DNA of 64,000 nucleotides from an uncultured Verrucomicrobiota bacterium (GTDB lineage: Bacteria; Verrucomicrobiota; Verrucomicrobiia; Opitutales; Opitutaceae): NCBI GenBank assembly GCA_913058185.1, contig CAJXQX010000010.1, positions 1 to 64,000 of the forward strand, read 5' to 3'. Within the stretch, counting starts at the first letter, position 1. Every line of letters begins with the position of its first letter. Below the pieces are notes generated by a model, which made no database searches, had not been told where the DNA came from, and was given only the letters and a program-made list of their open reading frames with translations. The position numbers were made by a program, and so were the translations under genes. This document shows positions 20,424 to 34,584 of this stretch, piece after piece.

Positions 20424-20855
20424 ATGATTTTACCAATTTCTTCATCGCCCCGCTCCCAAACTCGCGGCTTCACGTTACTTGAAATCATGGTCGTGCTCGC
20501 TATCCTGGGCCTGTTGGTGGCGGTGCTAGTTCGTAATGTCGGGGGTGACCTTGATCGCGGTCAGGAGCAGGCAGCATCACTTTTTGTCAAAACCACCCTC
20601 GAGAGTCCGCTCACCGGCTTTCGGATCGATACCGGAAATTACCCGACCACCGCCCAAGGATTGGACGCCTTAGTGACGGAGCCACAAGGAGCACGGGGTT
20701 GGAGAGGTCCGTATCTCGACAAGCTCCCGAGGGATCCTTGGCAGCAATCTTACGAGTATCGGTATCCCGGCACTCACAATAAAAACAAATTCGACCTGTT
20801 TTCCAAAGGCCGTGACCAAACGGCCGGCACGGACGACGACGTCGGCAACTGGTAA
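20424..20855 (+). CDS. gspG: Type II secretion major pseudopilin GspG
   Basis: A 143-residue pseudopilin. A short basic leader ends in RG, followed by the prepilin cleavage and methylation motif FTLLEIMVVLAILGLLVAV (Glu at +5). The C-terminal part has the GspG features YPTTAQGLDALV, the GWRGPYLDKLPRDPW segment and the GTDDDVGNW end, which binds calcium in known members. It builds the shaft of the pseudopilus in the inner membrane and periplasm. It is the first gene of gspGHIJKLM; spacing to gspH is 21 bases. Confidence 0.96.
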   Translation: MILPISSSPRSQTRGFTLLEIMVVLAILGLLVAVLVRNVGGDLDRGQEQAASLFVKTTLESPLTGFRIDTGNYPTTAQGLDALVTEPQGARGWRGPYLDKLPRDPWQQSYEYRYPGTHNKNKFDLFSKGRDQTAGTDDDVGNW

Positions 20856-20876
20856 ACGTCGCCGATTGGCGGTCAT

Positions 20877-21413
20877 ATGAATTTTTACCGCCGACTCTTG
20901 CTAGACTCGACTCGTGGAAGAGGTGGGTCCGGATTCACCCTGATCGAGATTGTGGTGGTAATTGCGCTGATGGGAGTGCTGGCCACGGTACTTGCGGTGG
21001 GGGCATCCCGATTGATGGTGGATCGGGAAGAATCACCGGAAGACATGTTCTGGTTTGCGGTGGGCGAAGCGCGTAAGTTTGCCCTCCAGCATGAGATCGA
21101 TGTAACGCTGAGTTTCGATAATGATGAACAGGTTTTTATAGCCGCGACTGATTTGGGGACCAGAGAGGTCCCACTGCCTTCGCAACAGCCGATCACCCTG
21201 GACTTCCTCGGAGTGACGGCGGGCGAACAAACGATTCTGATCGGAGGTTCACTGGTGGAGGCGAACCTGTTGAGTGCGGTGAAGTTTTTCCGAGATGGCA
21301 CGTGTTCGCCGTTTCGAGCCCGACTAGATATTGAAGGTAAACAACCCTTGGTTTTGGAAATAGATCCGTGGACCTGTGCGCCGATTTTACGGGATGAGGA
21401 GAGGCGATTCTGA
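20877..21413 (+). CDS. gspH: Type II secretion minor pseudopilin GspH
   Basis: A 178-residue minor pseudopilin. The leader ends GGSG before FTLIEIVVVIALMGVLATVL, the prepilin peptidase site and membrane helix. The rest is a beta-rich periplasmic domain without a strong family motif, so the GspH name rests on size and position between gspG and gspI. It probably forms part of the pseudopilus tip or shaft. Stop and the next ATG are one base apart. Confidence 0.85.
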   Translation: MNFYRRLLLDSTRGRGGSGFTLIEIVVVIALMGVLATVLAVGASRLMVDREESPEDMFWFAVGEARKFALQHEIDVTLSFDNDEQVFIAATDLGTREVPLPSQQPITLDFLGVTAGEQTILIGGSLVEANLLSAVKFFRDGTCSPFRARLDIEGKQPLVLEIDPWTCAPILRDEERRF

Positions 21414-21414
21414 T

Positions 21415-21873
21415 ATGCGTAACCGGGCGTTCACGATCATCGAAGTGTTAGCGGCGTTAGCGATATTCGCGACGGCCGCGATTGTGTTGGGGGCCGCTTA
21501 CGTCAACGTGCTGAACGGCTACGCTCACGCCGAACGCGCTACGAAGGTTGATGCGGACTTGCGGTTCGCGCGGGAGATATTGTTTCGCCAACCGGATCTG
21601 GATTTAGTCGAGGAGGGGGACGAGTTTGAATCGGCTGATGGCCGCCGCGTGATCTGGCGAGCGATTGTTGAACCCACATTGGTGGCCGACTTGTTTGAGG
21701 TGGAATTTGAGGTAGAGTTGATCGATGAAAATACCGGCGAAGGTGAAACGGTGACCGAGCGATTTCGGCTCCTGCGTCCGACTTGGTCCGAGGATAATGA
21801 TCGCGATCAATTACGCCAAGAGGCGCGCGATAATCTCACGCAGTATTTGGAGGGCTATCGCGGCAACCGATGA
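21415..21873 (+). CDS. gspI: Type II secretion minor pseudopilin GspI
   Basis: A 152-residue minor pseudopilin starting MRNRAFTIIEVLAALAIFAT. The leader is very short (five residues before the cleavage motif A-FTIIE), with Ala rather than Gly at -1, which prepilin peptidases also accept. The start at 21415 is preferred over an upstream in-frame ATG inside gspH. The C-terminal domain is acidic. Its end overlaps gspJ (ATGA), indicating coupling. Confidence 0.85.
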   Translation: MRNRAFTIIEVLAALAIFATAAIVLGAAYVNVLNGYAHAERATKVDADLRFAREILFRQPDLDLVEEGDEFESADGRRVIWRAIVEPTLVADLFEVEFEVELIDENTGEGETVTERFRLLRPTWSEDNDRDQLRQEARDNLTQYLEGYRGNR

Positions 21874-22529
21874 AACGTGTGATTCCCAGTTCACGACGTG
21901 GTTTCACCATGATCGAATTGATCGTGGCGATGGTGCTGATCGCCGGGGTGATGATCGGCCTTAATACGTTTATTTTTTCCATGTCCGAGTTGTGGGGCCG
22001 AGGACGGGAGTATCGGCTGTTTGACCAACATGCGCGGTCGCTGACTCGTTTTTTGGAGGGTGAACTACGCCAGGCGGCACTCCCACCCCGGGTGGCCAAA
22101 GATGTCGCGGCGGTTGAGGCTCGAGAGGTCGAAGTGGATTTTGGTCGTCGCGAGGATCTGCTGGTTTTTGGACTGCGGGAGGGGAGTCGAATTTTGCAGT
22201 GGCCGGAGCGACCCTTGCCTGACGTGTGGGCCGCACTGGAGGTAAAGCGCGGCGAAGGGCTCATCCTCTATTGGCAGTCCGCTTTGGAGGAGGAGTTTAA
22301 TACCGATCCTCCGCGTGAGATGGTATTGTCGCAGCTGGTGACAGCGATGCGCTACGAGTATTTCGAGGCTGATTTTGGACAGTGGGAAATCGAGAACCGA
22401 TTGCGCACGGGTGATGATGGGGAACTCGAAACGCCCGGTCGAATTCGTCTCACGTTTACCTATCGTGAACAAGAGGTGCAGACGATTGTGCCTTTGACCA
22501 TTTTTGGCGAAGGGTTGCCGCCGTTTTAA
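21870..22529 (+). CDS. gspJ: Type II secretion minor pseudopilin GspJ
   Basis: A 219-residue minor pseudopilin. SSRRG precedes the cleavage motif FTMIELIVAMVLIAGVMIG. The periplasmic part contains RSLTRFLEGELRQAALPP and a beta-rich C-terminal half ending in ITYREQEVQ-like strands (seen as FTYREQEVQTIVPL). Size and position between gspI and gspK fit GspJ, a tip component with GspI and GspK. The stop lies one base before the gspK ATG. Confidence 0.86.
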   Translation: MKRVIPSSRRGFTMIELIVAMVLIAGVMIGLNTFIFSMSELWGRGREYRLFDQHARSLTRFLEGELRQAALPPRVAKDVAAVEAREVEVDFGRREDLLVFGLREGSRILQWPERPLPDVWAALEVKRGEGLILYWQSALEEEFNTDPPREMVLSQLVTAMRYEYFEADFGQWEIENRLRTGDDGELETPGRIRLTFTYREQEVQTIVPLTIFGEGLPPF

Positions 22530-22530
22530 G

Positions 22531-23718
22531 ATGAGAGGACTTGCGCATAATTCTCTTCAGAGTGGTCCGCGTCGTGAGCGTGCGACGGTGCTCGTGATCG
22601 TATTGGTCACGTTGTTATTCGCGACGACGGCACTTTTTCTCTTCATCGAAAAAGCGAGCACGGACCTCATTGTGCATGTGCGCGATAGTGATCGAGTCCG
22701 GCTGAGACAGGAGGCGTATTCGGCGTTGGAGACGACGCTGGCGGTGTTGGTTGATTTTCAAGAAGTATTGGGTGGATTACATAGTCCGGCGGAGGGCTGG
22801 GCTGAACCGCTAGAATGGGGTGATTATGAACCGGCCGAAGGTCGCGAGGTGAAAGTGACGTTTGAGGATGAGAGCGGCCGGCTTCCCTTTGGCACGCTGG
22901 ATTTTCAAATGTGGGTGCGGCTCTTCGAATCGTGGGGAGTGCGTGAGTTCGATGCCGAAGGTTGGGCGGATGCGCTGCTGGGCTGGTCTCAGGAAGACTA
23001 CGTTGCCAACACGTTCGATGCCCCAAGCCTAGAAGACTATGAGCGCGACCCACTAGGTTTTGCGCCGCCTGCCCGGCAACCCCACTCCTGGGACGAATTG
23101 CGAGCGATCGATCTGATTCGAGATGAGTTTTTCGACGAGACGGGACGGCCCAACGAATACTATCAACGGATGGAAGAGTCGGTGACGTTGCTGAAATACA
23201 ATACGCCCAATATCAATGCGGCATCTGCGGGGGCTCTGGCCGCTCTGGGGCAATACGATGATACTCAGCAGGATTTGTTGAGGGACTATTTGGGTGGATC
23301 CGGAGTTCATCGTAGCAACGGGCCGGGCTTCTTCACCGATGCCAATGAAGTGGCGACGATCCTCGGCGATCAGGGGGGTGCCGGTGGTTTCGGGGCGAAT
23401 ATCCAGGCGTTGCGAATCAATGTTGAGGTCACTCAAGGCGTCTCGACCTATCTGCTCAGCGTCGTGGTAGCTCCGCCGGGTGGCGCTACCTCAAACGCCA
23501 CGGATCCGATCCCGGAACGCGAGTCGCTCAATGGGCAGACTGAAGATGAACCTGAGACCCGTGAGCCGACGATCTCGGCGGCTGCGATGGCTATCACAGG
23601 ACCGGGTGGTGATGACGAACTTCCTGAATCTATCGAGTATCCCTTTACACTTCTCTCGATCCAAGAGAAGGATGCTGCAGACCGAACCACACCTTTGGCC
23701 CAATCGACCGAGCCTTAA
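22531..23718 (+). CDS. gspK: Type II secretion minor pseudopilin GspK
   Basis: A 395-residue protein. After a basic N-terminus, TVLVIVLVTLLFATTALFLF forms the membrane helix with a Glu (FIEKAS) nearby. The large periplasmic domain includes NINAASAGALAALGQYDDTQ, the helix-hairpin-helix-like element typical of GspK. The start at 22531 is preferred, as the longer frame begins inside gspJ. The tail carries a Pro/Glu/Thr-rich extension of about 70 residues (after VVVAPPGGA), longer than the usual GspK end. It caps the pseudopilus. Confidence 0.88.
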   Translation: MRGLAHNSLQSGPRRERATVLVIVLVTLLFATTALFLFIEKASTDLIVHVRDSDRVRLRQEAYSALETTLAVLVDFQEVLGGLHSPAEGWAEPLEWGDYEPAEGREVKVTFEDESGRLPFGTLDFQMWVRLFESWGVREFDAEGWADALLGWSQEDYVANTFDAPSLEDYERDPLGFAPPARQPHSWDELRAIDLIRDEFFDETGRPNEYYQRMEESVTLLKYNTPNINAASAGALAALGQYDDTQQDLLRDYLGGSGVHRSNGPGFFTDANEVATILGDQGGAGGFGANIQALRINVEVTQGVSTYLLSVVVAPPGGATSNATDPIPERESLNGQTEDEPETREPTISAAAMAITGPGGDDELPESIEYPFTLLSIQEKDAADRTTPLAQSTEP

Positions 23719-23720
23719 TA

Positions 23721-24878
23721 ATGCCCAAACTTACCCTAAAACTCCCGGTGCTACAGACCCGCACTCGTGAAGTCGCGATCCTACCGGATCATCGTTTCTT
23801 CATGCGCTCGGTTGCATTGACGGATGAGGCCGAGGCGGGACCGATAGCAGATCAGATCGAACTCGCCTTGGAAGGTATGGCTCCGTTTCCCCTCAGCCAG
23901 ACGCTGTGGGCCTACTGGACGAAACCCGGTTGCGATCACGCGATGGTCTTCGCTGCTTACCAAAAGCGATTTACCGCGGAGGAGATGGAAGCCTGGAGTG
24001 AGGCGGAATGGGTGACTCCCAGATTGAGCACGTTGCTCATCGAAGAGAATCCGTCAGCGGCGACGACGTATATTTTGACGGCTGAAGATGGCCTGACCGC
24101 GGTGCACTTTGGCGATGCTTCGGGCGTGCCGACCCAAATCCGGGCGGTGGCGCTCTCGCCCGAGGTTTCCGATCAAGAAATCGCGACCGTTCGCGAAGAG
24201 CTCATTCGGGCCTGTGGAGGTAGCACCACGGTGCGTGATCTCGAGGCCACCGAAGTCGAAGCCGGCCAACCGGGAACCGACGAACTTTTGATCAAGCGGG
24301 CAGGGGAAGATACCGCTGTAAGCCTCGATTTGGCCCAGGCGCTCGACGTGCGCGATCAAGCAGAACTGACCGGCCGCCGTCGTGCTCGCGTGCGTGATTC
24401 ATGGCTCTGGCGCGGTTTGGTGGCAGCTCTGGTCACGCTGTTATTTGCTGGTTTGGCTGAACTTTCCTTGTGGGGAGCCAGTTTCTGGCAGGACGCGTTG
24501 CATCAGCAGGTCCAAGTCCAGTCGCCAGTCGTCAGCGAGATTGAAACGGCCGATCGGCTCGCAACTCGGATTGAGGAGTTGCACACGAAGCGTCTGCGAC
24601 CATTCGAGATGATCGCCATCGCCGATGGCCCCCGTCCGGAGACGATAATATTTCTACGCACAGAGGCCACAGGCCTCTACACGCTCGAAATTGAAGCTGA
24701 GACCAATGACATCCAATCGATCGATAACTACGTATCTGCCCTCAGGGACTTGGCCGGCATTGAAAGCGTGGATCCACCCGACCTAGATACCCGCGGATCG
24801 CAATCGACGATACGATTATTAGTGCGATTTACCTCCGATGCGTTTGATACCAATTCCGAAGCGGAGGAATCCTCATGA
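23721..24878 (+). CDS. gspL: Type II secretion assembly platform protein GspL-like
   Basis: A 385-residue bitopic inner-membrane protein. The N-terminal cytoplasmic domain (about 1-225) is predicted to have the actin-like fold of GspL/PilM, which docks the ATPase GspE. A membrane helix follows near 232-255 (WRGLVAALVTLLFAGLAELS), and a ferredoxin-like periplasmic domain closes the protein. Sequence similarity to textbook GspL is weak by eye; the name relies on topology and position between gspK and gspM. Confidence 0.78.
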   Translation: MPKLTLKLPVLQTRTREVAILPDHRFFMRSVALTDEAEAGPIADQIELALEGMAPFPLSQTLWAYWTKPGCDHAMVFAAYQKRFTAEEMEAWSEAEWVTPRLSTLLIEENPSAATTYILTAEDGLTAVHFGDASGVPTQIRAVALSPEVSDQEIATVREELIRACGGSTTVRDLEATEVEAGQPGTDELLIKRAGEDTAVSLDLAQALDVRDQAELTGRRRARVRDSWLWRGLVAALVTLLFAGLAELSLWGASFWQDALHQQVQVQSPVVSEIETADRLATRIEELHTKRLRPFEMIAIADGPRPETIIFLRTEATGLYTLEIEAETNDIQSIDNYVSALRDLAGIESVDPPDLDTRGSQSTIRLLVRFTSDAFDTNSEAEESS

Positions 24879-25411
24879 AGGCTTGGTTCATCAGTCGCGT
24901 AGCCCGTGAAAAACTCCTATTGTTGCTCTTTGCCGTTGCCGCCGCGGTGCTCTGGGTATCCGGCCTGTGGGAGCGCGGACGTTCGGTGGTGGTCGACGTG
25001 CGGGAGACCCGTTCGGTTTTAGACACTCAGAAACAGTGGCTTTCGGCGAAGAGTCGGATCGAAAAAGAGGCGGCAGACGCCGTGGCAAATCTGGATGGTT
25101 CACGGACCTTCAATCGCCTTCGATTGTCTGCCGAACTGAGCACCCTCGCGAAGGAAGCTGGGATCGACCAAAATCTGCGCAGCGAGGCTCAGCCCACGCA
25201 ACAAACGGCCCAATTTTCCATCCATACCGTATCATTGACCCTAAGCCGGGTGCATTGGGAAAATAATCTGTTGCCGTTTTACGCGGAGCTCTCGAAACGC
25301 GCTCCTTACATCAGTATTGAGAGTTTTTCGCTCGGATCGGTGCGAAATAACCCGGCCGAGTTAAACGCGCGTCTGACTGTTTCGTCGGTCGAAATCGCTG
25401 AGTCCCCCTAG
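24875..25411 (+). CDS. gspM: Type II secretion assembly platform protein GspM-like
   Basis: A 178-residue bitopic inner-membrane protein. A basic N-terminus (SRVAREKLLLLLFAVAAAV) leads into one membrane helix, a coiled-coil-like stretch (about 35-65) and a small periplasmic ferredoxin-like domain (SLTLSRVHWENNLLPFYAELS). It overlaps gspL by four bases, as gspM usually does. It would anchor GspL and the pseudopilus base. No gspN, gspC or prepilin peptidase gene follows. Confidence 0.82.
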   Translation: MKAWFISRVAREKLLLLLFAVAAAVLWVSGLWERGRSVVVDVRETRSVLDTQKQWLSAKSRIEKEAADAVANLDGSRTFNRLRLSAELSTLAKEAGIDQNLRSEAQPTQQTAQFSIHTVSLTLSRVHWENNLLPFYAELSKRAPYISIESFSLGSVRNNPAELNARLTVSSVEIAESP

Positions 25412-25551: not shown

Positions 25552-26730
25552 ATGTCCCTGTTTACCCGCGTCTCTCTGCGCCTTCCTCGGCACAGCCGAA
25601 TCTTGCTTTGGAGCCTCGTGCTTTGGATGGCTTCCCCTCAGCGGGACGCGCGAGCGGAGTCCACCCTCCACTACAAATTCCAATCATGGCAGGAGGAGGA
25701 TGGTCGCGTGCGGGTTGATGCTCATTACGCGGAGGCCGAGCACACGTGGGCTACGGGTGATAAACTTCGCTTGGTCGGGTTGATAGACACGATTACTGGC
25801 GCGACCCCGTCGGGTCAGCCACCTCCTGATGGGAGCGACCAAGTGCCATTGTCCCGCCTCGAAGATCTCCGCGAAGCCTACCAAATCGAATATTCTCACC
25901 CCTTCGAGCAGGCGGCCATCGCGGTGGGCTACGGCAACAGCAAGGAAAGCGACTACCTCTCAGACGTCTGGTCGTTGAACGGCCAACTTTTTTTCAACCA
26001 AAAGGACACGACGCTCTTGATGGGATATGCCGAGGCCAACGATGACGTCACAGCGGCCTTTCTTAGCCGTCCGCGGGAAAAGAAAGTGCAGGATGCGATC
26101 ATCGGCCTGACTCAGGTCCTTTCACCCCGCACTTCGGTCACCGCCAACCTGACTTACGGCAAGCAACGCGGTTACCTCTCCGATCCCTACAAGATCGTGG
26201 AGAAGGCCACCGAGATTTTACCAGGATTTTCGCTTAACCTCACCTTCCCCGAGAATCGCCCAAGTTCGAAAGAGAAGCTGATCGGTTTCTTCAGCGTTAA
26301 TCATGCGATCGAACCGCTTAATGCCGCCATCGAGTCTTCTTTCCGTCTGTTGGATGATAATTGGGGCATCACGAGTCAGACCTTCGAGTTTGCTTGGTAT
26401 CAGCGTTTCGGTGAAAAACTGATCATTCGTCCTGCGGTGCGTTACTATCGCCAATCCGCCGCTGATTTTTACGCCGTCGATTTGGATAATTCCCCCATCG
26501 TGCCGCCGAGTGAATCGACCGGCCGCGCTCCTTATTATTCGTCCGACTATCGACTCTCGAACATGGAAACGTGGATGCTCGGGGTGAAGGCCGTTTGGGA
26601 CATCAACGAACACGTGTCCGTCGATGCGACCCTAGAGAAGTATATCATGAACGGCCGGGATAGCATCACGTCGTCCAGCGCTTACGTAGACGCCAATGTA
26701 ATCACGGTCGGAATTCGCTTATGGCTCTGA
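25552..26730 (+). CDS. DUF3570 outer-membrane beta-barrel protein, candidate flavoprotein
   Basis: A 392-residue DUF3570 protein, probably an outer-membrane beta-barrel: signal peptide ending near RDARAES, then alternating amphipathic strands to a terminal aromatic/leucine strand (VITVGIRLWL). The family-like stretch APYYSSDYRLS lies near residue 345. Residues 79-85 read DTITGAT, matching the D-x-x-[S/T]-G-A-[S/T] consensus at which ApbE attaches FMN, and the next gene is an ApbE. The start MSLFTRVSL is preferred over upstream codons, because it gives the normal signal peptide. It overlaps apbE by ten bases. Flavinylation is an inference from motif and neighbour. Confidence 0.85.
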   Translation: MSLFTRVSLRLPRHSRILLWSLVLWMASPQRDARAESTLHYKFQSWQEEDGRVRVDAHYAEAEHTWATGDKLRLVGLIDTITGATPSGQPPPDGSDQVPLSRLEDLREAYQIEYSHPFEQAAIAVGYGNSKESDYLSDVWSLNGQLFFNQKDTTLLMGYAEANDDVTAAFLSRPREKKVQDAIIGLTQVLSPRTSVTANLTYGKQRGYLSDPYKIVEKATEILPGFSLNLTFPENRPSSKEKLIGFFSVNHAIEPLNAAIESSFRLLDDNWGITSQTFEFAWYQRFGEKLIIRPAVRYYRQSAADFYAVDLDNSPIVPPSESTGRAPYYSSDYRLSNMETWMLGVKAVWDINEHVSVDATLEKYIMNGRDSITSSSAYVDANVITVGIRLWL

Positions 26731-27719
26731 TTCAGGACAGTCATGCGGCATTGAACCAATCGAACGGGGGGAAACCCGCGGCGACGGATTTCGCGCCCTT
26801 GCGCCGGATTGATTTCCACGCGATGGGCACGCGTTGTCTGATTCAATTTGCGATGAGTGATGCGGCGGTCGCGACCCGTTTCGATCAGGCGGTGAGGGCG
26901 TGGGTGCAAAACTACGAAGCCCGCTACACCCGATTCCGTGACGACAGTATCATCGGTAAAATCAATCGTGCCGCCGGCAATGGCGAATGGGTGGTGATCG
27001 ACGAGGAAATGGAGCGGATGCTGGAGATGTGCGGCACGGTGCACTTCATGACCCAAGGTATTGTCGATGTGACGGCGGGACCGCTCGCCAAGCTCTGGGA
27101 TTATCACATTGAGCATCCGCGTTTGCCGACCGAAGCGGAAGTAGCCCTGGCCTGTGAATTGGTCGGTTGGTCCAAGGTTGAACGCGAACCAGGCCGGGTG
27201 CGGTTACCGCAAACGGGCATGTCGCTCGACCTCGGGGGATGGGGCAAGGAGTTCGCCGTCGATATGGCCGTGCAGATGGCCACTGAACATGGCATCGAAA
27301 AGATTTTGGTAGATTTCGGACACGACATTCGAGTCGTCGGCACCCCACCGGACCGTCCGGCTTGGCACATTGGTTTGGAGGATCCCAATGAGCCGGGTAA
27401 GCTGTGGGGGAGTATCGGTGCCGTGAATACGTCAGTGGCGAGCTCGGGGAATTACCAGCGCGGCTTCGTTATCGATGGGCAACGTTACGGGCACATCATC
27501 GATCCGCGGTCGGGTCGTCCCACCACCAATGGCCTGCAGCAGGTCACCGTGGTCGCACCGTCTTGTATACAAGCCGGCATGTTAGCGACCGCCGCTTTTG
27601 TGATGGGGCCGGAAAATGGCCTCGATTTTATTCAATCAACTCCCGGGGCCGAAGGCTGCATGGTCTCGACGGGAGCCAAACACCAAACCCGAGGATTTTT
27701 CCATTATGTGGTCAGCTAA
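26721..27719 (+). CDS. apbE: ApbE family FAD:protein FMN transferase
   Basis: A 332-residue flavin transferase that covalently links FMN from FAD to Thr/Ser of target proteins, using Mg2+. Family motifs are present: HAMGTRCLIQF near residue 35, VDVTAGPLAKLWDYH, SLDLGGWGKEFAVD, VNTSVASSGNYQR and YGHIIDPRSGRPT. Unlike most Gram-negative ApbE proteins it has no visible signal peptide or lipobox (start MALIQDSHAALNQS), and no upstream in-frame start gives one. It overlaps both neighbours (DUF3570 upstream, thioredoxin downstream), so one operon is likely, with DUF3570 as the apparent substrate. Confidence 0.93.
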   Translation: MALIQDSHAALNQSNGGKPAATDFAPLRRIDFHAMGTRCLIQFAMSDAAVATRFDQAVRAWVQNYEARYTRFRDDSIIGKINRAAGNGEWVVIDEEMERMLEMCGTVHFMTQGIVDVTAGPLAKLWDYHIEHPRLPTEAEVALACELVGWSKVEREPGRVRLPQTGMSLDLGGWGKEFAVDMAVQMATEHGIEKILVDFGHDIRVVGTPPDRPAWHIGLEDPNEPGKLWGSIGAVNTSVASSGNYQRGFVIDGQRYGHIIDPRSGRPTTNGLQQVTVVAPSCIQAGMLATAAFVMGPENGLDFIQSTPGAEGCMVSTGAKHQTRGFFHYVVS

Positions 27720-28212
27720 ACTAAAATCCATTTTGACGGTAATTGCCGTCGCTTTAGCTCTAATGGTCACCGCAGCGCGGGCACTCGAACCCGGTGATCC
27801 GTTGCCAGATTGGGCGAGCTTTGAGCTCGAAGGGGAGGTCCCCAATCTCGACGGCAAGGTCGTGATGATCGACGTATGGGCCTCGTGGTGCGCTCCGTGC
27901 AAAGCTTCGTTCCCTGCCTACGGGGAATTGCAGCAGGAGTGGGCCGAGCAGGGGTTTGTGATCCTGGGCGTAAGCGTAGATCGTAAGTCCAAGGACTACG
28001 CCCGCTCTCTTAAGCAGACACCTCCGGGCTTCGCGACGGTGAGGGATGTGACGCAGAAGCTGGCGGCGAAACTCAGTCCGCCGGCGATGCCGACGAGTTA
28101 TATTTTTGGTCGCGATGGTAAGCTGCGGAAAGTCCATAAGGGCTATCGTGGTGATCGCACGGTGGAGCTCTTGCGCTCCGAAATTGAACCCCTCCTTGCT
28201 GAGACCCGATGA
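27706..28212 (+). CDS. TlpA-like periplasmic thioredoxin
   Basis: A 168-residue thioredoxin-fold protein with N-terminal signal or anchor (SILTVIAVALALMVTAARAL) and redox motif WCAPC (Cys62, Cys65). The cis-proline region is AMPTSYIF and the end is FGRDGKLRKVHKGYRG. TlpA/ResA proteins reduce disulfides in the periplasm, for example in apocytochromes or copper-site proteins. The start MWSAKL lies within the end of apbE. Overlap with the DUF4266 gene suggests it keeps that protein's C-terminal cysteines reduced. Confidence 0.92.
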   Translation: MWSAKLKSILTVIAVALALMVTAARALEPGDPLPDWASFELEGEVPNLDGKVVMIDVWASWCAPCKASFPAYGELQQEWAEQGFVILGVSVDRKSKDYARSLKQTPPGFATVRDVTQKLAAKLSPPAMPTSYIFGRDGKLRKVHKGYRGDRTVELLRSEIEPLLAETR

Positions 28213-28433
28213 TGAAACGAAAACTATTATCTCTTCTATCTACGGTGGGCGCTGCCCTCGTTTTCTCGGGTTGCCAAAACGTGGAACCTTGGGAGAAAGG
28301 GTTACTCGCCGACTACACCATGCGAGCTGATCGTGACGCGATGCATGATACGATGTCCGAACATATTTACTTTTCTCGTGAAGCCTCCTCCGGCGGTCGC
28401 GGAGTCGGTGCCTCCGGCTGCGGCTGTAACTAA
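28209..28433 (+). CDS. DUF4266 small lipoprotein
   Basis: A 74-residue lipoprotein with signal peptide and lipobox FSGC (Cys22). The mature part begins NVEPWEKGLLADYTM and ends HIYFSREASSGGRGVGASGCGCN, the strongly conserved tail of DUF4266. The glycine-rich end with two cysteines in CGC looks like a metal-binding or modification site. It overlaps the TlpA gene by four bases. Function is unknown, but DUF3570, ApbE, TlpA and DUF4266 recur together in Gram-negative genomes, as far as I recall. Confidence 0.88.
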   Translation: MMKRKLLSLLSTVGAALVFSGCQNVEPWEKGLLADYTMRADRDAMHDTMSEHIYFSREASSGGRGVGASGCGCN

Positions 28434-28460: not shown

Positions 28461-30353
28461 ATGAACACCTTCACCACGGCCTATTTCCGCCTTCGTTGGC
28501 TCCATCTTCCCGCCGCATTACTTATGGTTTTGCTGCAACGCCTGCCGATGTTGCGGGCGATCGTTACCACTGAATTTGTCGTCAGTTCGGGTGTGGGTAG
28601 CGTCTTGAAAGGTGTGCTGGCCGGCAGTGCCGCGCTGGGCGCTGTGCAAACGGTCGCGGGTGCCACCGAGCTTGATGCCGGAACAGGCGGTAATCCCGGA
28701 TCTGCCACGGTGGGAGTTGCCTTCACTGGAGGATTTGCCGTCGTAGGTGCCCCGGCCGTTCCAGCTTCATATGAGATCACCGGTGACATTCCCCCCGGAC
28801 TTACCGTCACCAATATTAGCGGTGATCAAGTGAATGGGTCGACCGTGACGATAACGGGCACGCCGACCGAAGCGGGTTCATTCGCCATGCGAATTCGCGC
28901 ATGGAAAGGACCGAATAAAACGCTGAACGGTGGCCAGCCTACGTTTAATTATGTTATCAATATAGCCGCAGGCGGGGGCAGCGCACCGGCGATCTCGAAT
29001 CAGCCGGATACATTGTCGGTGGCGACAGGCGGTTCGGCCTCATTTTCGGTGAGTGCTTCGGGTGATCCGACCCCTACCTTTCAGTGGCGCAAGGACGGCA
29101 CCAACATCACCGGCGCCACGAGTTCGACGTTCTCGATTGCGACGGTCGCAGCCTCCGATGCCGGGGACTATACAGTCGTAGTTACGAATGCCTCCGGCAG
29201 CGATACCAGCACGGCGGCGACACTGACCGTTACGGCGGCTGCTACCGTGACGATTGGGACTCAACCCGTGTCAATCAACCCCGTCGTTGGCGGCACGGCA
29301 TCGCTGTCGGTTATTGCGACATCCTCCGGTAGTTTGAGTTACCAATGGTTCCGTTTTAAGCGAGGGGAAGGGCTACGATCTCTCTCCGGTGAAACGGGGG
29401 CATCATTGGTTATTAATCCGGTAGCTACCTCGGACATGGGATTCTATTTCGCCCGCATCACCGGCGGCACGACGACGGTTGATTCGGCATACGCGATTCT
29501 AACCGTGCCGGGCGGCTCCAGTCGTCTAGCCAATCTCTCGACTCGTGGGAATGTGCCGGCTGGCGGTGAGTTGACGCCAGGATTTGTCCTGCGTGGAGAC
29601 GGAACGAAGAATCTCGTGATTCGAGCGGTGGGGCCTGAGTTGGCTGACTTCGGTGTTTCCGGGGCGATGGCGGATCCCACCTTGGGTCTGGTGCCGCTCG
29701 GTGGTTCGACGCCTCAGTTAACCAACGACAACTGGGAGGATTCGAGCAACTCAGCGTCGCTGGTCACGACCAGTGCAACTCTCGGTGCTTTCCCGTTAGA
29801 TTCCGGGTCGCTTGATGCTGCCGTGCTCACTTCCGTGTCGTTGCCCAATTCGCAGGGAAGTAAGGGATTTACGGTCCAAATCAAGTCTACGTCGGGCGCG
29901 GCGGGAATCATCTTGGCGGAAGTTTATGATCCCGATGCTGCCGGCACTTCCGCTCAGCTCACCAATATCTCGGCGCGCGGATTCAGTGGCTTAGGTGCCG
30001 ACGTGCTCGCCCCCGGATTTGTAATCGATGGTGACGGGGCCATGACGATGTTGATTCGAGTGGTCGGTCCGACTCTGGGTAACTTTGGAGTATCTGGCAC
30101 GATGGTAGATCCTCGATTGGAAGTTATCCCGGGTGGTCAAACATTTGTGGTGGCGAACAATGACAACTGGGGCGGCACCGCTGCCCTCAAAGCTGCCTTC
30201 GCTACGACGGGTGCATTCTCCTTCGCGGATGATGGTTCACTCGATGCTGTCGTGGTGGTGAGACTACCGCCCGGACCTTACACCGTGCGTCCATCGGGAG
30301 CCAACGACGGCACCGGAGTTATCCTAGTCGAAGCCTATGAAGTTATCGATTAG
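28461..30353 (+). CDS. Large secreted Ig-domain protein with tandem C-terminal units (copy 1)
   Basis: A 630-residue exported protein. The N-terminus is unusual: a hydrophobic helix (LPAALLMVLLQRLP), a short basic turn, then EFVVSSGVGSVLKGVLAGSA and an Ala-rich stretch, shared with the next gene. After this come a putative Ig (He_PIG-like) domain (about 70-170), a classical Ig-like domain (about 175-265; FQWRKDGTNITGA, DAGDYTVVV) and another Ig-like unit (about 265-350). Two tandem units of about 135 residues (starting LANLSTRGNVP and LTNISARGFSG) end the protein, each with a GFVxxGxG...LxIRxVGP signature. Probably surface-exposed or secreted; a candidate substrate of the flanking T2SS, by inference. 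Confidence 0.85.
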   Translation: MNTFTTAYFRLRWLHLPAALLMVLLQRLPMLRAIVTTEFVVSSGVGSVLKGVLAGSAALGAVQTVAGATELDAGTGGNPGSATVGVAFTGGFAVVGAPAVPASYEITGDIPPGLTVTNISGDQVNGSTVTITGTPTEAGSFAMRIRAWKGPNKTLNGGQPTFNYVINIAAGGGSAPAISNQPDTLSVATGGSASFSVSASGDPTPTFQWRKDGTNITGATSSTFSIATVAASDAGDYTVVVTNASGSDTSTAATLTVTAAATVTIGTQPVSINPVVGGTASLSVIATSSGSLSYQWFRFKRGEGLRSLSGETGASLVINPVATSDMGFYFARITGGTTTVDSAYAILTVPGGSSRLANLSTRGNVPAGGELTPGFVLRGDGTKNLVIRAVGPELADFGVSGAMADPTLGLVPLGGSTPQLTNDNWEDSSNSASLVTTSATLGAFPLDSGSLDAAVLTSVSLPNSQGSKGFTVQIKSTSGAAGIILAEVYDPDAAGTSAQLTNISARGFSGLGADVLAPGFVIDGDGAMTMLIRVVGPTLGNFGVSGTMVDPRLEVIPGGQTFVVANNDNWGGTAALKAAFATTGAFSFADDGSLDAVVVVRLPPGPYTVRPSGANDGTGVILVEAYEVID

Positions 30354-30380: not shown

Positions 30381-32276
30381 GTGACTTTACTTTATCTGAA
30401 TTTGCGACGGTTTCATCTGCCGGTCGCCCTATTGATCGTGCTCCTCCAACGGATGCCGCTGTTGCCCACTGCGATCACCGCGGAGTTTGTGCTAGGGACC
30501 GGCGTGGGCAGTGTGCTGAAAGGCGTTTTGGCGGGAAGCGCGGTGATGTTGTTGGAACCGCTCCACGCCCAGACCGGCGCGACTCCGGTGAGATTGGATC
30601 CAGGTCCTCGTGGTTTGCCCGCGAAAGCCACGGTTGGGGTTCCGTTCGGTGGTGGGTTCGCCATTGTGGGGGCGCCTGCCGGCGCTCAATCTTATGAAAT
30701 TACCGGGCAAATTCCACCGGGACTAAGCGTGTTAAACTTGAATGGCGATACCGTGAATGGAGTGTCGGTTTCGATTTTAGGAACGCCCACATTGGCTGGT
30801 GAATATGTCCTGCAGGCGCGAGCTTGGCGGGGGCTCAATAAGACGCTTGATGGGGGTGGTTTACCATTCGACTACACGATTGAAGTGACCGAAGCACCGG
30901 ATGCCGCGCCTTCAATTTCGAGTCAACCTGCTTCGCTGACCGTTTTGGATGGCTCGGCGGTAGTATTTTCGGTGACGGCTTTGGCGAACCCCTTGCCCAC
31001 GTTTCAATGGCGCAAGGATGGCATCAATCTCAATGGAGCGACTGAGGCTACCTTAAATATTTCTTCCGTCACATCCGACGATACCGGGAATTACACGGTG
31101 GTGATCAACAATGCTTTGGGCCGGGTGACGAGTGCTCCGGCTACCCTGACGATTGCCGGAGCGGCCATCACGATTACGTCGCCGCCGGCTTCGATCGACG
31201 TCGAATCGGGGACGACAGGAATGCTATCGGTGACCGCCTTAGCGGCCACACCGCTTAGATTTCAATGGTTCCGTTATCGAACGGGAGAAGGACTTCGTAT
31301 CTTGAGTGGTGAGACTCTGCCGACCCTCAATTTGGCGAGTGTGGGGGAGTCGGATATGGGGTTCTATTTTGCTCGAGTCACCGATGGGAACGAAACGGTT
31401 GATTCCGAAATCGCTATTGTGACGGTCACCGGTGGATCGAGCCGATTGGCTAATCTTTCGACTCGCGGAAGCGTGCCGGCGGGAGGCGAGCTGACTCCCG
31501 GATTTGTCCTGCGAGGTGATGGGTCAAAAAACCTCGTGATCCGCGCCATCGGGCCTGAGTTGGCGGACTTCGGGGTGACTCCAGCGATGGCCGATCCCAC
31601 GCTTGCGCTGGTGCCATTGGGCGGCTCAACGCCGTCGCTCATCAACGACAACTGGGAAGATGCGGTCAACTCGAACCAACTCGCCTCGACCAGCAGGACT
31701 TTGGGGGCATTCCCGTTGGATGGCGAATCGCTCGATGCCGCCGTGCTCACCTCGGTCTCATTGCCAAATGCAGCGGGCAGTAAAGGGTTCACGGTGCAAA
31801 TCACGTCAAAGAGTGGCGCGGCGGGTATCGCCCTGGCCGAGGTTTACGATCCTGATGGGACAGGGAGCTCGGCTCAGCTCACCAATATTTCAGCCCGGGG
31901 ATTCAGCGGACTTGGGGCGGATGTGCTCGCGCCGGGATTTGTGATCGATGGAGACGGCGCGAAAACGATGTTGATCCGGGTGGTCGGACCGACGCTCGCA
32001 GGTTTTGGGGTGCCGGGCACCATGACCGATCCCCGTTTGGAAGTGATTCCCGGTGGGCAAACGTTTTCCATCGCCAGCAATGATAACTGGGGGGGCACCG
32101 CGGCGCTGAAAGCTGCTTTTCAGACGACGGGTGCGTTTGCTTTCCCGGACGACGCTTCACTCGATGCCGTGGTGGTCGTGCGCCTGCCTCCCGGCTCCTA
32201 CACCGTTCGTCCTGCCGGAGCGGATGACGGCACGGGTGTCATATTGGTCGAGGCCTACGAGGTGTTAACTCCCTGA
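30381..32276 (+). CDS. Large secreted Ig-domain protein with tandem C-terminal units (copy 2)
   Basis: A 631-residue paralogue of the preceding gene along its whole length, starting with GTG 27 bases after it. It shares the N-terminal LLQRMPLLPT and VGSVLKGVLAGSA segments, the putative Ig domain (YEITGQIPPGLSV), two Ig-like domains (FQWRKDGINLNGA; FQWFRYRTGEGLR) and the two C-terminal units (LANLSTRGSVP; LTNISARGFSG). The duplication is old enough for about a third of residues to differ outside the C-terminal units, judged by eye. Same inferred location and role as copy 1. Confidence 0.84.
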   Translation: MTLLYLNLRRFHLPVALLIVLLQRMPLLPTAITAEFVLGTGVGSVLKGVLAGSAVMLLEPLHAQTGATPVRLDPGPRGLPAKATVGVPFGGGFAIVGAPAGAQSYEITGQIPPGLSVLNLNGDTVNGVSVSILGTPTLAGEYVLQARAWRGLNKTLDGGGLPFDYTIEVTEAPDAAPSISSQPASLTVLDGSAVVFSVTALANPLPTFQWRKDGINLNGATEATLNISSVTSDDTGNYTVVINNALGRVTSAPATLTIAGAAITITSPPASIDVESGTTGMLSVTALAATPLRFQWFRYRTGEGLRILSGETLPTLNLASVGESDMGFYFARVTDGNETVDSEIAIVTVTGGSSRLANLSTRGSVPAGGELTPGFVLRGDGSKNLVIRAIGPELADFGVTPAMADPTLALVPLGGSTPSLINDNWEDAVNSNQLASTSRTLGAFPLDGESLDAAVLTSVSLPNAAGSKGFTVQITSKSGAAGIALAEVYDPDGTGSSAQLTNISARGFSGLGADVLAPGFVIDGDGAKTMLIRVVGPTLAGFGVPGTMTDPRLEVIPGGQTFSIASNDNWGGTAALKAAFQTTGAFAFPDDASLDAVVVVRLPPGSYTVRPAGADDGTGVILVEAYEVLTP

Positions 32277-32556
32277 TTCGGGATTTTGGTATAGGCCGCT
32301 GAGACGGAGTTATTGCCGCAAAGAGGCGCAAAAAGACCACACGCGTGCCGACTGTTCTCCGCGCGCCTAGTGGCGCCTCGACCCATTAATTAGCGATTTG
32401 ACAGTTTTGCGCCTCTTTGCGGCTAAAAATTCGTTGGATCGGTGCCCTCCGCAGGACCGCGATTCTTGGGCTCTGAGTGGCTTTATGTCCCGTTTGGTGA
32501 AAAACCAGTCTTGGCGAGGGCACCTTTATCGCCAATGATGGTCTTCCTTTTTGTCC
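32277..32556. other. Intergenic region with palindromic element, no gene
   Basis: This 280-base gap between two Ig-protein genes contains the 109-bp palindrome listed separately and no reliable open frame. The remaining 130 bases before the cyclophilin-fusion start show no recognised promoter motif. Confidence 0.5.
32315..32423. repeat. 109-bp palindromic element with 19-bp perfect arms (copy 1)
   Basis: GCCGCAAAGAGGCGCAAAA at 32315-32333 is repeated exactly in inverse at 32405-32423. The centre contains GCGCGCCTAGTGGCGCCTC. A second copy in opposite orientation lies at 42202-42314 with the same ends and a matching centre. No coding capacity; resembles a MITE or REP-like element. Confidence 0.8.
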
Positions 32557-34584
32557 ATGAAACGGTATCCCCTCCGACTCTTTCTTACTGCAGCGCTATT
32601 TGCGACTGTGGCTACTGCCCAAAACCCGGTCACGACCAATGCCATCGGCGCTCAATCCGGTTCGATCGGGGGAGGTGCCGCATCGATTGATCTGCGGTCT
32701 CACTTCGGGATGGATGGAGTGAACACTCCGCTCGTGCGTTTTGATACCGTTTTCGGTGAGTTCGATGTGGAGCTGCTGGAAAACGCCGCTCCCAACCACG
32801 TGACGAACTTCCTGCGCTACACGGACGCCGAACTTTATGATAACACGATTATCCATCGCACGGCGTCGTTTCTGTCTTCCGCACCTTCGATTACTCAGGG
32901 CGGAGCGTTTAAGGCCATCGAGGGGCTCACGCCGATAACCTCATTTGGTGACATCAATTTGGAGTATGAGCTGCCGAACGCCCGGGGGACGATCGCAGCC
33001 GCGCGGACCGCCGACATCAATAGCGCGAGTTCACAGTGGTTTTTTAACACCGAAGACAACACCACGACACTTGGCCCCGACAATAATAGCGGTTTCACCG
33101 CCTATGGTCGCGTGCTCGGCAACGGCATGGACGTGGTCGACGTGATCGCGAGTATCAACCGGTTCAACCTCGATGGAGGCGTGTTCTCCGAGATTCCGCT
33201 CCGTTTCTTCAGCGGCGGCACGGCCACGGTGGCAAACTTGGTCGTGGTCAATACGGTGCGTCGCATCGACATCTACCCCACCAGTGGTGACACGGGTTCA
33301 GCCCTAACCTTTACGGCTACCAGCTCGGACCAAACGGTGGTCACGGCCACCATCAATGGCAGCACGCTACAGTTGACGCCGGTATCCACCGGGTCGGCGA
33401 CTGTCACCGTGCAAGCGGTGGGCGTGGCTGGTTTGGAAGTTACTCAAGAGTTCGCTTATGCCACCGGCGGCTTGGCCGTCACGACTCAACCCGCCTCGAC
33501 CGACGTGGTTGAGGGAGCGAGTGCCAGCCTAACGGTCTCGGCGGTGTCTGATGCTGCTATCACATACCAGTGGTATCGTCTTCGTTCGGGTGAAACCGCT
33601 GGGCAAGCGATTACAGGGGCTACGACCGCCACTTTAAATCTTACCAATGTCGCGGCGAGTGACATGGGTTTCTATTGGGCGGCGCTGACTTCGGGCGGTG
33701 GTGTGACCAATTCTAAAATTGCGACCATCACGCTCAGTGGCGGCAGCAGTCGGCTGGCAAATCTTTCGACTCGGGGGCGCATTCCGGCCAATGGCACGCT
33801 TACTCCCGGATTCGTCCTGCGGGGCACGGGCACCAAGCCGCTCGTGATTCGAGCCGTGGGCCCGCAGTTGTTGAACTTTGGCGTGCAGAGCGCGCTCACC
33901 GATCCGAAGATGGAAATCATTCCGGCCGGCGGATCTGAGGCGATTGCGAGCAACGACAACTGGGGGACTGCCGCCAACGCTGCGACACTCGTCACCACCA
34001 GTGCCGCTCTCGGCGCATTCGGTTTAGATAACGGTTCAGCGGATGCCGCTATCCTCACGGACCTGCCGTTGCCGAATACTTCTGGCAGTCGCGGTTACAC
34101 GGTGCGCATCTCGTCGACCGACAGCACATTGTCCGGTATTGCGTTGGCCGAGGTTTACGATCCTGGGGCCGTCGATGGAGACCTCCAACTCACCAATGTA
34201 TCCGCTCTCGGCTTCTCCGGACTGGGTGAAGATGTCCTGTCGCCCGGATTTGTGATCGATGGGACCGGGGCGAAGACGATGCTTATTCGGGTGTCGGGAC
34301 CGTCTCTGGTGAACTTTGGCGTCACAGGAACGATGACCGATCCGAAATTGTCTCTCATTCCAGCCGGCCAATCTATGGCCATTGCGACCAACGACAATTG
34401 GAGCGGCACGGCTGCGCTGAAAGCAGCCTTCGCGACCACGGGTGCATTTGAGTTAGATTCCGATGCATCGCTGGACGCGGTGATCTTGGTTCGCTTACCT
34501 CCGGGAGCTTACACGGTGAAGCCCGAAGGCGCGGATGGAGGCACTGGCACCATCCTCGTCGAAGCCTACGAAGTGATTGAGTAG
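32557..34584 (+). CDS. Secreted cyclophilin-Ig fusion with tandem C-terminal units
   Basis: A 675-residue exported protein (signal peptide MKRYPLRLFLTAALFATVA). Residues about 50-230 form a cyclophilin-type peptidyl-prolyl isomerase domain (FDTVFGEFDVELLENAAPNH, YDNTIIHRTASF, ITQGGAFK, SQWFFN). A short linker and an Ig-like domain (about 305-395; YQWYRLRSGETAG) follow. Two C-terminal units homologous to those of the two preceding genes close the protein (LANLSTRGRIPANG; LTNVSALGFSG). Several catalytic cyclophilin positions are altered (the usual HRxIxxFMxQGG reads HRTASF with an insertion before QGG), so isomerase activity is uncertain. The ATG at 32557 is chosen over a TTG two codons earlier. 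Confidence 0.85.
   Translation: MKRYPLRLFLTAALFATVATAQNPVTTNAIGAQSGSIGGGAASIDLRSHFGMDGVNTPLVRFDTVFGEFDVELLENAAPNHVTNFLRYTDAELYDNTIIHRTASFLSSAPSITQGGAFKAIEGLTPITSFGDINLEYELPNARGTIAAARTADINSASSQWFFNTEDNTTTLGPDNNSGFTAYGRVLGNGMDVVDVIASINRFNLDGGVFSEIPLRFFSGGTATVANLVVVNTVRRIDIYPTSGDTGSALTFTATSSDQTVVTATINGSTLQLTPVSTGSATVTVQAVGVAGLEVTQEFAYATGGLAVTTQPASTDVVEGASASLTVSAVSDAAITYQWYRLRSGETAGQAITGATTATLNLTNVAASDMGFYWAALTSGGGVTNSKIATITLSGGSSRLANLSTRGRIPANGTLTPGFVLRGTGTKPLVIRAVGPQLLNFGVQSALTDPKMEIIPAGGSEAIASNDNWGTAANAATLVTTSAALGAFGLDNGSADAAILTDLPLPNTSGSRGYTVRISSTDSTLSGIALAEVYDPGAVDGDLQLTNVSALGFSGLGEDVLSPGFVIDGTGAKTMLIRVSGPSLVNFGVTGTMTDPKLSLIPAGQSMAIATNDNWSGTAALKAAFATTGAFELDSDASLDAVILVRLPPGAYTVKPEGADGGTGTILVEAYEVIE

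Follow-up and report, generated by a model that had tools for sequence, protein, structure and literature searches.

The DUF3570 gene cluster

A gene for a DUF3570 protein is directly followed by one for an ApbE homologue in a 64,000-nt stretch of DNA (the window) from an uncultured Verrucomicrobiota bacterium of the Opitutaceae. This raises the question of whether the DUF3570 protein carries a covalent flavin and, if so, where in the cell the flavin is attached. The two genes overlap by exactly 10 bases (26721-26730), as originally predicted, and belong to a plus-strand run of four genes, each overlapping or adjoining the next, listed here with the candidate attachment site:

25552..26730, plus strand: DUF3570 protein, predicted outer-membrane beta-barrel, 392 aa (PF12094 match of 218 bits, curated cut-off 25; AlphaFold barrel; hydrophobic leader)
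25786..25806, plus strand: candidate FMN attachment site DTITGAT, residues 79-85; the acceptor would be Thr85, where predicted strand 3 ends
26721..27719, plus strand: dedicated apbE, FAD:protein FMN transferase homologue (PF02424 match of 250 bits, curated cut-off 25.6; Gly286; no signal peptide)
27706..28212, plus strand: exported TlpA/ResA-like thioredoxin, WASWCAPC (Thioredoxin_8 and AhpC-TSA matches, hydrophobic leader; its match to the ResA model falls below the cut-off of that model)
28209..28433, plus strand: DUF4266 lipoprotein, lipobox FSGC, C-terminus SGCGCN (PF14086 match of 72 bits)

No DsbD was found in the cluster, and the genome has a single DsbD_TM match, on another contig (C17). 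Upstream, a type II secretion pseudopilin gene and GspK/L/M-like genes (20424-25411) run straight into the DUF3570 gene. This block is kept in 35 of the 95 loci with at least 5 kb of upstream sequence and is absent as a block from the rest; given that only these 35 loci have them, the type II secretion genes were set aside as context rather than as part of the mechanism.

Relation to the published flavinylation system

Méheust et al. (2021; eLife, PMC8238504) showed that ApbE acts on DUF3570 and reported gene clusters in which these two families occur together with DUF4266 and a thioredoxin-like protein, some including DsbD and others not; in 316 clusters all four families are present with no neighbouring DsbD. 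Co-expression of the Chlorobium luteolum DUF3570 with its ApbE gave a fluorescent band, and this band was lost only when both acceptor serines were mutated, the protein having two [S/T]GA[S/T] sites (PMC8238504). Because this pair is published, the co-expression experiment suggested along with the original prediction has in effect been done on a homologue, and the notion that a flavinylated barrel would be a new type of extracytosolic redox protein was overtaken in 2021.

The window cluster matches this system in its four clustered families, in the [S/T]GA[S/T] motif of DUF3570 and in corresponding to the DsbD-less variant. It differs in that its DUF3570 has one site and is therefore not of the two-site sub-type of C. 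luteolum, in that Ig-domain proteins with an LLQRxP leader follow the cluster, and possibly in its ApbE, which lacks a signal peptide and has Gly for the metal-ligand Asp. No discussion of a single site, of a leaderless Gly-type ApbE or of such Ig-domain proteins was found in the passages of PMC8238504 consulted, and a search of mostly open-access journal literature returned no other paper naming DUF3570 or DUF4266. Covalent flavin on DUF3570 via ApbE is already known; what deserves pursuit here is the unusual enzyme, together with the leader family.

A predicted outer-membrane barrel with a conserved candidate FMN site

By prediction, DUF3570 is an exported outer-membrane beta-barrel, as indicated by a signal-like leader, the AlphaFold model and structural matches. 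The signal peptide would span about residues 1-35, and the model, built on an alignment of 112 homologues (mean pLDDT 96.2), has 18 strands, which we interpret as 16 barrel strands plus an additional hairpin within one loop. Its best structural matches are outer-membrane barrels, with VIA-align Z up to 22.5. BamA, OmpG, CymA and BcsC share the predicted fold (Z about 17-22), but at about 5-11% identity and with no common function implied, and we know of no covalent flavin in these four proteins. No PDB chain is related to DUF3570 by sequence, no relative was found in the viral contigs searched, and the sole relative in the plasmid collection searched is one Hymenobacter record. On a Hymenobacter volaticus plasmid (L178:4197-6846), two overlapping frames with ApbE-like matches lie shortly before the DUF3570 gene. 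Elsewhere (L170:6079-7490), a DUF3570 frame is in three pieces with an internal stop.

In the AlphaFold model, the mature N-terminus begins at strand 1. Assuming that the termini are periplasmic, as in the matched barrels, the end of strand 3 would point outward under either strand count, placing Thr85 at the extracellular end of this strand and the start of the second extracellular loop, a position derived from strand order and not from coordinates. The outward half, which makes up 219 of 360 residues, holds 41 of the 50 most conserved ones. Sequence alternation alone suggests that Asp79 and Thr85 lie on the strand face bearing charged residues and thus face the lumen.

Coordinates and translation bear out the DTITGAT motif at residues 79-85. 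It is unlikely to be there by chance, since the pattern D-x-x-[S/T]-G-A-[S/T] arises in 0.25% of shuffles of the protein and is present in 2 of the 206 stop-to-stop frames of at least 100 aa within the window. Its position is conserved over the 112 homologues: residue 79 is Asp (104) or Asn (8), residue 81 is Ile, Val or Leu, residue 82, i.e., motif position 4, is Ala (47), Ser (34), Thr (28) or Val (3), residues 83 and 84 are Gly and Ala in 110 each, and Pro86 is invariant (112/112). The expected invariance of the motif next to apbE was seen for the acceptor, which is Thr (103) or Ser (9) in 112/112 homologues, but not for the literal sequence. Among DUF3570 proteins encoded no more than 1.5 kb from apbE (98 in all), and with Asp or Asn accepted at position 1, the pattern fits 53; another 41 carry Ala or Val at position 4, and the last 4 depart from it in different ways. 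Over the 112 homologues, Ala or Val occupies position 4 in 50, which lie outside the published [S/T]GA[S/T] motif. The window protein has one [ST]GA[ST] motif, and most homologues have 0 or 1. A second, divergent DUF3570 type (L176:5661-8976 and L177:5067-7961) has SSAS and SGAS in the site region; at these loci ApbE retains Asp and seemingly has a leader, and DUF4266 ends in GCGCY or GCGCF.

A dedicated ApbE subfamily

The linked ApbE is alignable with solved ApbEs over most of their length and, like the canonical Mg-dependent ApbE/Ftp enzymes (E. coli, T. pallidum, T. maritima, Listeria FmnB), it matches PF02424 and retains the HIIDP region and the metal-ligand Thr (Thr290, T284 in E. coli Ftp). 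In contrast to these enzymes, it has Gly286 where they have an Asp that ligates metal site 1 (D280 in E. coli Ftp), a conserved Cys four residues before this Gly, and no export signal. Gly is found in 104/104 linked homologues covering the position and the Cys in 103 of them; the other ApbEs of the same genomes nearly all have Asp. The metal-ligating residues being those reported as critical for transfer, this uniform replacement could mean that the Gly-type ApbE is no longer an FMN transferase but, for example, an FAD-binding chaperone, with DTITGAT kept for structure. Retention of the metal-ligand Thr and the HIIDP region in the window ApbE, a substrate motif still held to Thr or Ser, and the activity of the homologous C. 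luteolum pair (PMC8238504), whose ApbE may differ at this residue, all make such a loss of activity quite improbable.

The dedicated subfamily is monophyletic, forming one clade with support 99/96, and stands apart by score, with at least 395 bits in 288 Verrucomicrobiota genomes against 228 for the next ApbE. It occurs in 26 of these genomes, all among the 30 that have DUF3570; the DUF3570 of the remaining four is of divergent or fragmentary type. Nine genomes with apbE-less DUF3570 loci encode the dedicated ApbE elsewhere. In a panel of 57 relatives, it is encoded by 20 of the 21 genomes with DUF3570, all but G034 (84% complete), and it is present without DUF3570 in G021 (81% complete) and G020. 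The latter, a near-complete genome, has a lone dedicated-type ApbE (L293:7806-8954), with no DUF3570, leader protein or cluster found.

Neither an export signal nor a lipobox was found in the window ApbE, whose N-terminus has no hydrophobic leader. At the same loci, a hydrophobic leader-like stretch is present in 104/117 DUF3570 proteins, 101/103 thioredoxins and 103/103 DUF4266 proteins, versus 4/90 linked ApbEs. Lack of a leader alone does not set the linked ApbE apart, because some Asp-type ApbEs of these genomes have none either. Most characterised ApbEs are periplasmic lipoproteins, although a cytosolic ApbE modifies the soluble fumarate reductase of Klebsiella pneumoniae (reviewed in PMC12052999). 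The signal peptide is absent from that enzyme as from the linked ApbE, but its substrate remains cytosolic, whereas DUF3570 would be an exported outer-membrane protein.

In keeping with the periplasmic location of most ApbEs, DUF3570 might instead first pass through Sec and receive its flavin in the periplasm, either from another ApbE or from the linked one exported by some unrecognised route, the missing signal peptide then being incidental. The window genome does encode a second ApbE that keeps the Asp (L195; G000 C94:9587-10357, in a 565-aa open frame), but its N-terminus is also without an obvious leader. Moreover, a leader is missing from almost all homologues of the linked ApbE but present in its exported neighbours, and it is the Gly-type and not the Asp-type ApbE that tracks DUF3570. 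Periplasmic flavinylation is thus unlikely.

Proposed flavinylation before export

That the linked ApbE would flavinylate the adjacent barrel, the core of the original prediction, is well supported by the conservation of the site, by the near-perfect co-occurrence with one ApbE subfamily and by the published experiments on a homologue, and on these grounds the window DUF3570 is very likely to be flavinylated. In the mechanism proposed here, one FMN would be esterified to Thr85 by the neighbouring ApbE in the cytosol, which can supply FAD, while DUF3570 is still an unfolded precursor. The flavinylated precursor would then undergo Sec export and outer-membrane insertion, and the mature barrel may serve in redox reactions, electrons passing between its flavin and two thiol proteins, the exported thioredoxin and the DUF4266 lipoprotein with its C-terminal Cys-Gly-Cys-Asn. 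Attachment in the cytosol before export is suggested by an ApbE without export signal and a site on the cell-exterior side, and is reasonably probable; the electron route and its direction are proposed only tentatively. The GCGCN end of DUF4266 is found at fixed length in 94/94 homologues, and it is speculation that the Gly-rich tail forms a flexible thiol arm.

Taken as a whole, a barrel that receives FMN on Thr85 from the adjacent ApbE before export and then does redox work with thioredoxin and DUF4266 is the likely reading. It is favoured by the C. luteolum experiment (PMC8238504), the universal acceptor, the subfamily co-occurrence, the leaderless ApbE and the outward conservation. It is weakened by Gly in place of a metal ligand of a kind reported as critical, by Ala or Val at motif position 4 in many homologues and a single site where C. 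luteolum has two, by the distance of a presumably extracellular Thr85 from periplasmic partners, and by the lone dedicated-type ApbE of G020. If true, an ApbE acting before export, seemingly without a metal ligand of a kind reported as critical, would alter the view that ApbE works in the periplasm and depends on Mg.

Ig-domain proteins with an LLQRxP leader

Downstream of the four genes lie two further plus-strand genes whose products carry a related N-terminal leader:

28461..30353, plus strand: ig1, Ig-domain protein with LLQRxP leader, a leader family that co-occurs with DUF3570
28647..28667, plus strand: GA[TS] site QTVAGAT of the ig1 leader, residues 63-69
30381..32276, plus strand: ig2, second Ig-domain protein with LLQRxP leader (76.8 bits)
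30564..30584, plus strand: GA[TS] site HAQTGAT of the ig2 leader, residues 62-68

In this leader, a basic stretch is followed by LLQRxP and, after about 35 residues, by [HDNQ]-[STA]-x-[ASTV]-G-A-[TS], whose last residue is Thr in 96 and Ser in 6 of 102 non-redundant leaders. No Pfam or NCBIfam model covers the leader of ig1 or ig2, the leader string gave no hit in the literature searched, and the family is undescribed. It occurs in 15 of the 288 Verrucomicrobiota genomes, all within the 26 that have DUF3570 and the dedicated ApbE, and in 23 of the 57 relatives, i.e., all 21 DUF3570 genomes and the incomplete G006 (69%) and G021 (81%). A leader protein lies at most 9 kb downstream in 42 of the 45 loci with enough sequence; in more distant Verrucomicrobiota none was seen adjoining the cluster. 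Of note, the site in the leader appears to vary together with that of the barrel: position 4 is Ser or Thr in 15 of the 46 pairs in which DUF3570 has Ser or Thr there, against 0 of the 40 in which it has Ala (Fisher p 2.5e-5, uncorrected for relatedness). G006 has a remnant of the cluster (L294:6489-7767) with a thioredoxin match, a broken DUF4266 and a truncated leader protein, in which no DUF3570 or apbE was found.

These features suggest that the Ig-domain proteins could be a second ApbE substrate, a possibility to which we give somewhat less than even weight. Cleavage by signal peptidase I after the GA (AGA|T) is a serious rival, with about an even chance of being right: the leader would then hold an ordinary signal-peptidase site, well matched by its small-x-Ala before the cut and by the hydrophobic stretch ahead, and the Ig-domain proteins would be ordinary exported partners. 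Such cleavage leaves unexplained the Thr or Ser after the Ala in 102/102 leaders and the Gly before it in 101/102, whereas among signal peptides of thioredoxins from these loci, under a simple cut rule, Thr or Ser follows in 11/91 and Gly precedes in 5/91. Position 1 of the leader site, always His, Asp, Asn or Gln, and the covariation at position 4, with the same reservation as to relatedness, also speak against it. The nearly invariant GA[TS] site and the restriction of the leader family to genomes with the DUF3570 system, two incomplete genomes excepted, would fit the Ig-domain protein being the main ApbE substrate and the barrel its partner or exporter. This is very improbable, as no leader protein is detectable in 11 of the 26 genomes that encode both DUF3570 and the dedicated ApbE, and as ApbE has been proven to modify DUF3570 itself in another organism (PMC8238504).

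Extending the preferred reading of DUF3570 as substrate, a dedicated cytosolic ApbE of Opitutae-type Verrucomicrobiota, one without the metal-ligand Asp, might flavinylate before export both DUF3570, at its extracellular mouth, and the Ig-domain LLQRxP proteins, which with thioredoxin and DUF4266 would make up a flavin redox path to the surface; we put this forward with more reserve than the second-substrate proposal itself. If true, the leader proteins would be ApbE targets of a new kind and would offer a clue to the role of the DUF3570 system. Further downstream, the product of 32551-34584 combines Ig domains with a peptidyl-prolyl isomerase domain of the cyclophilin type and shares with ig1 and ig2 a C-terminal stretch (SSRLANLSTRG...).
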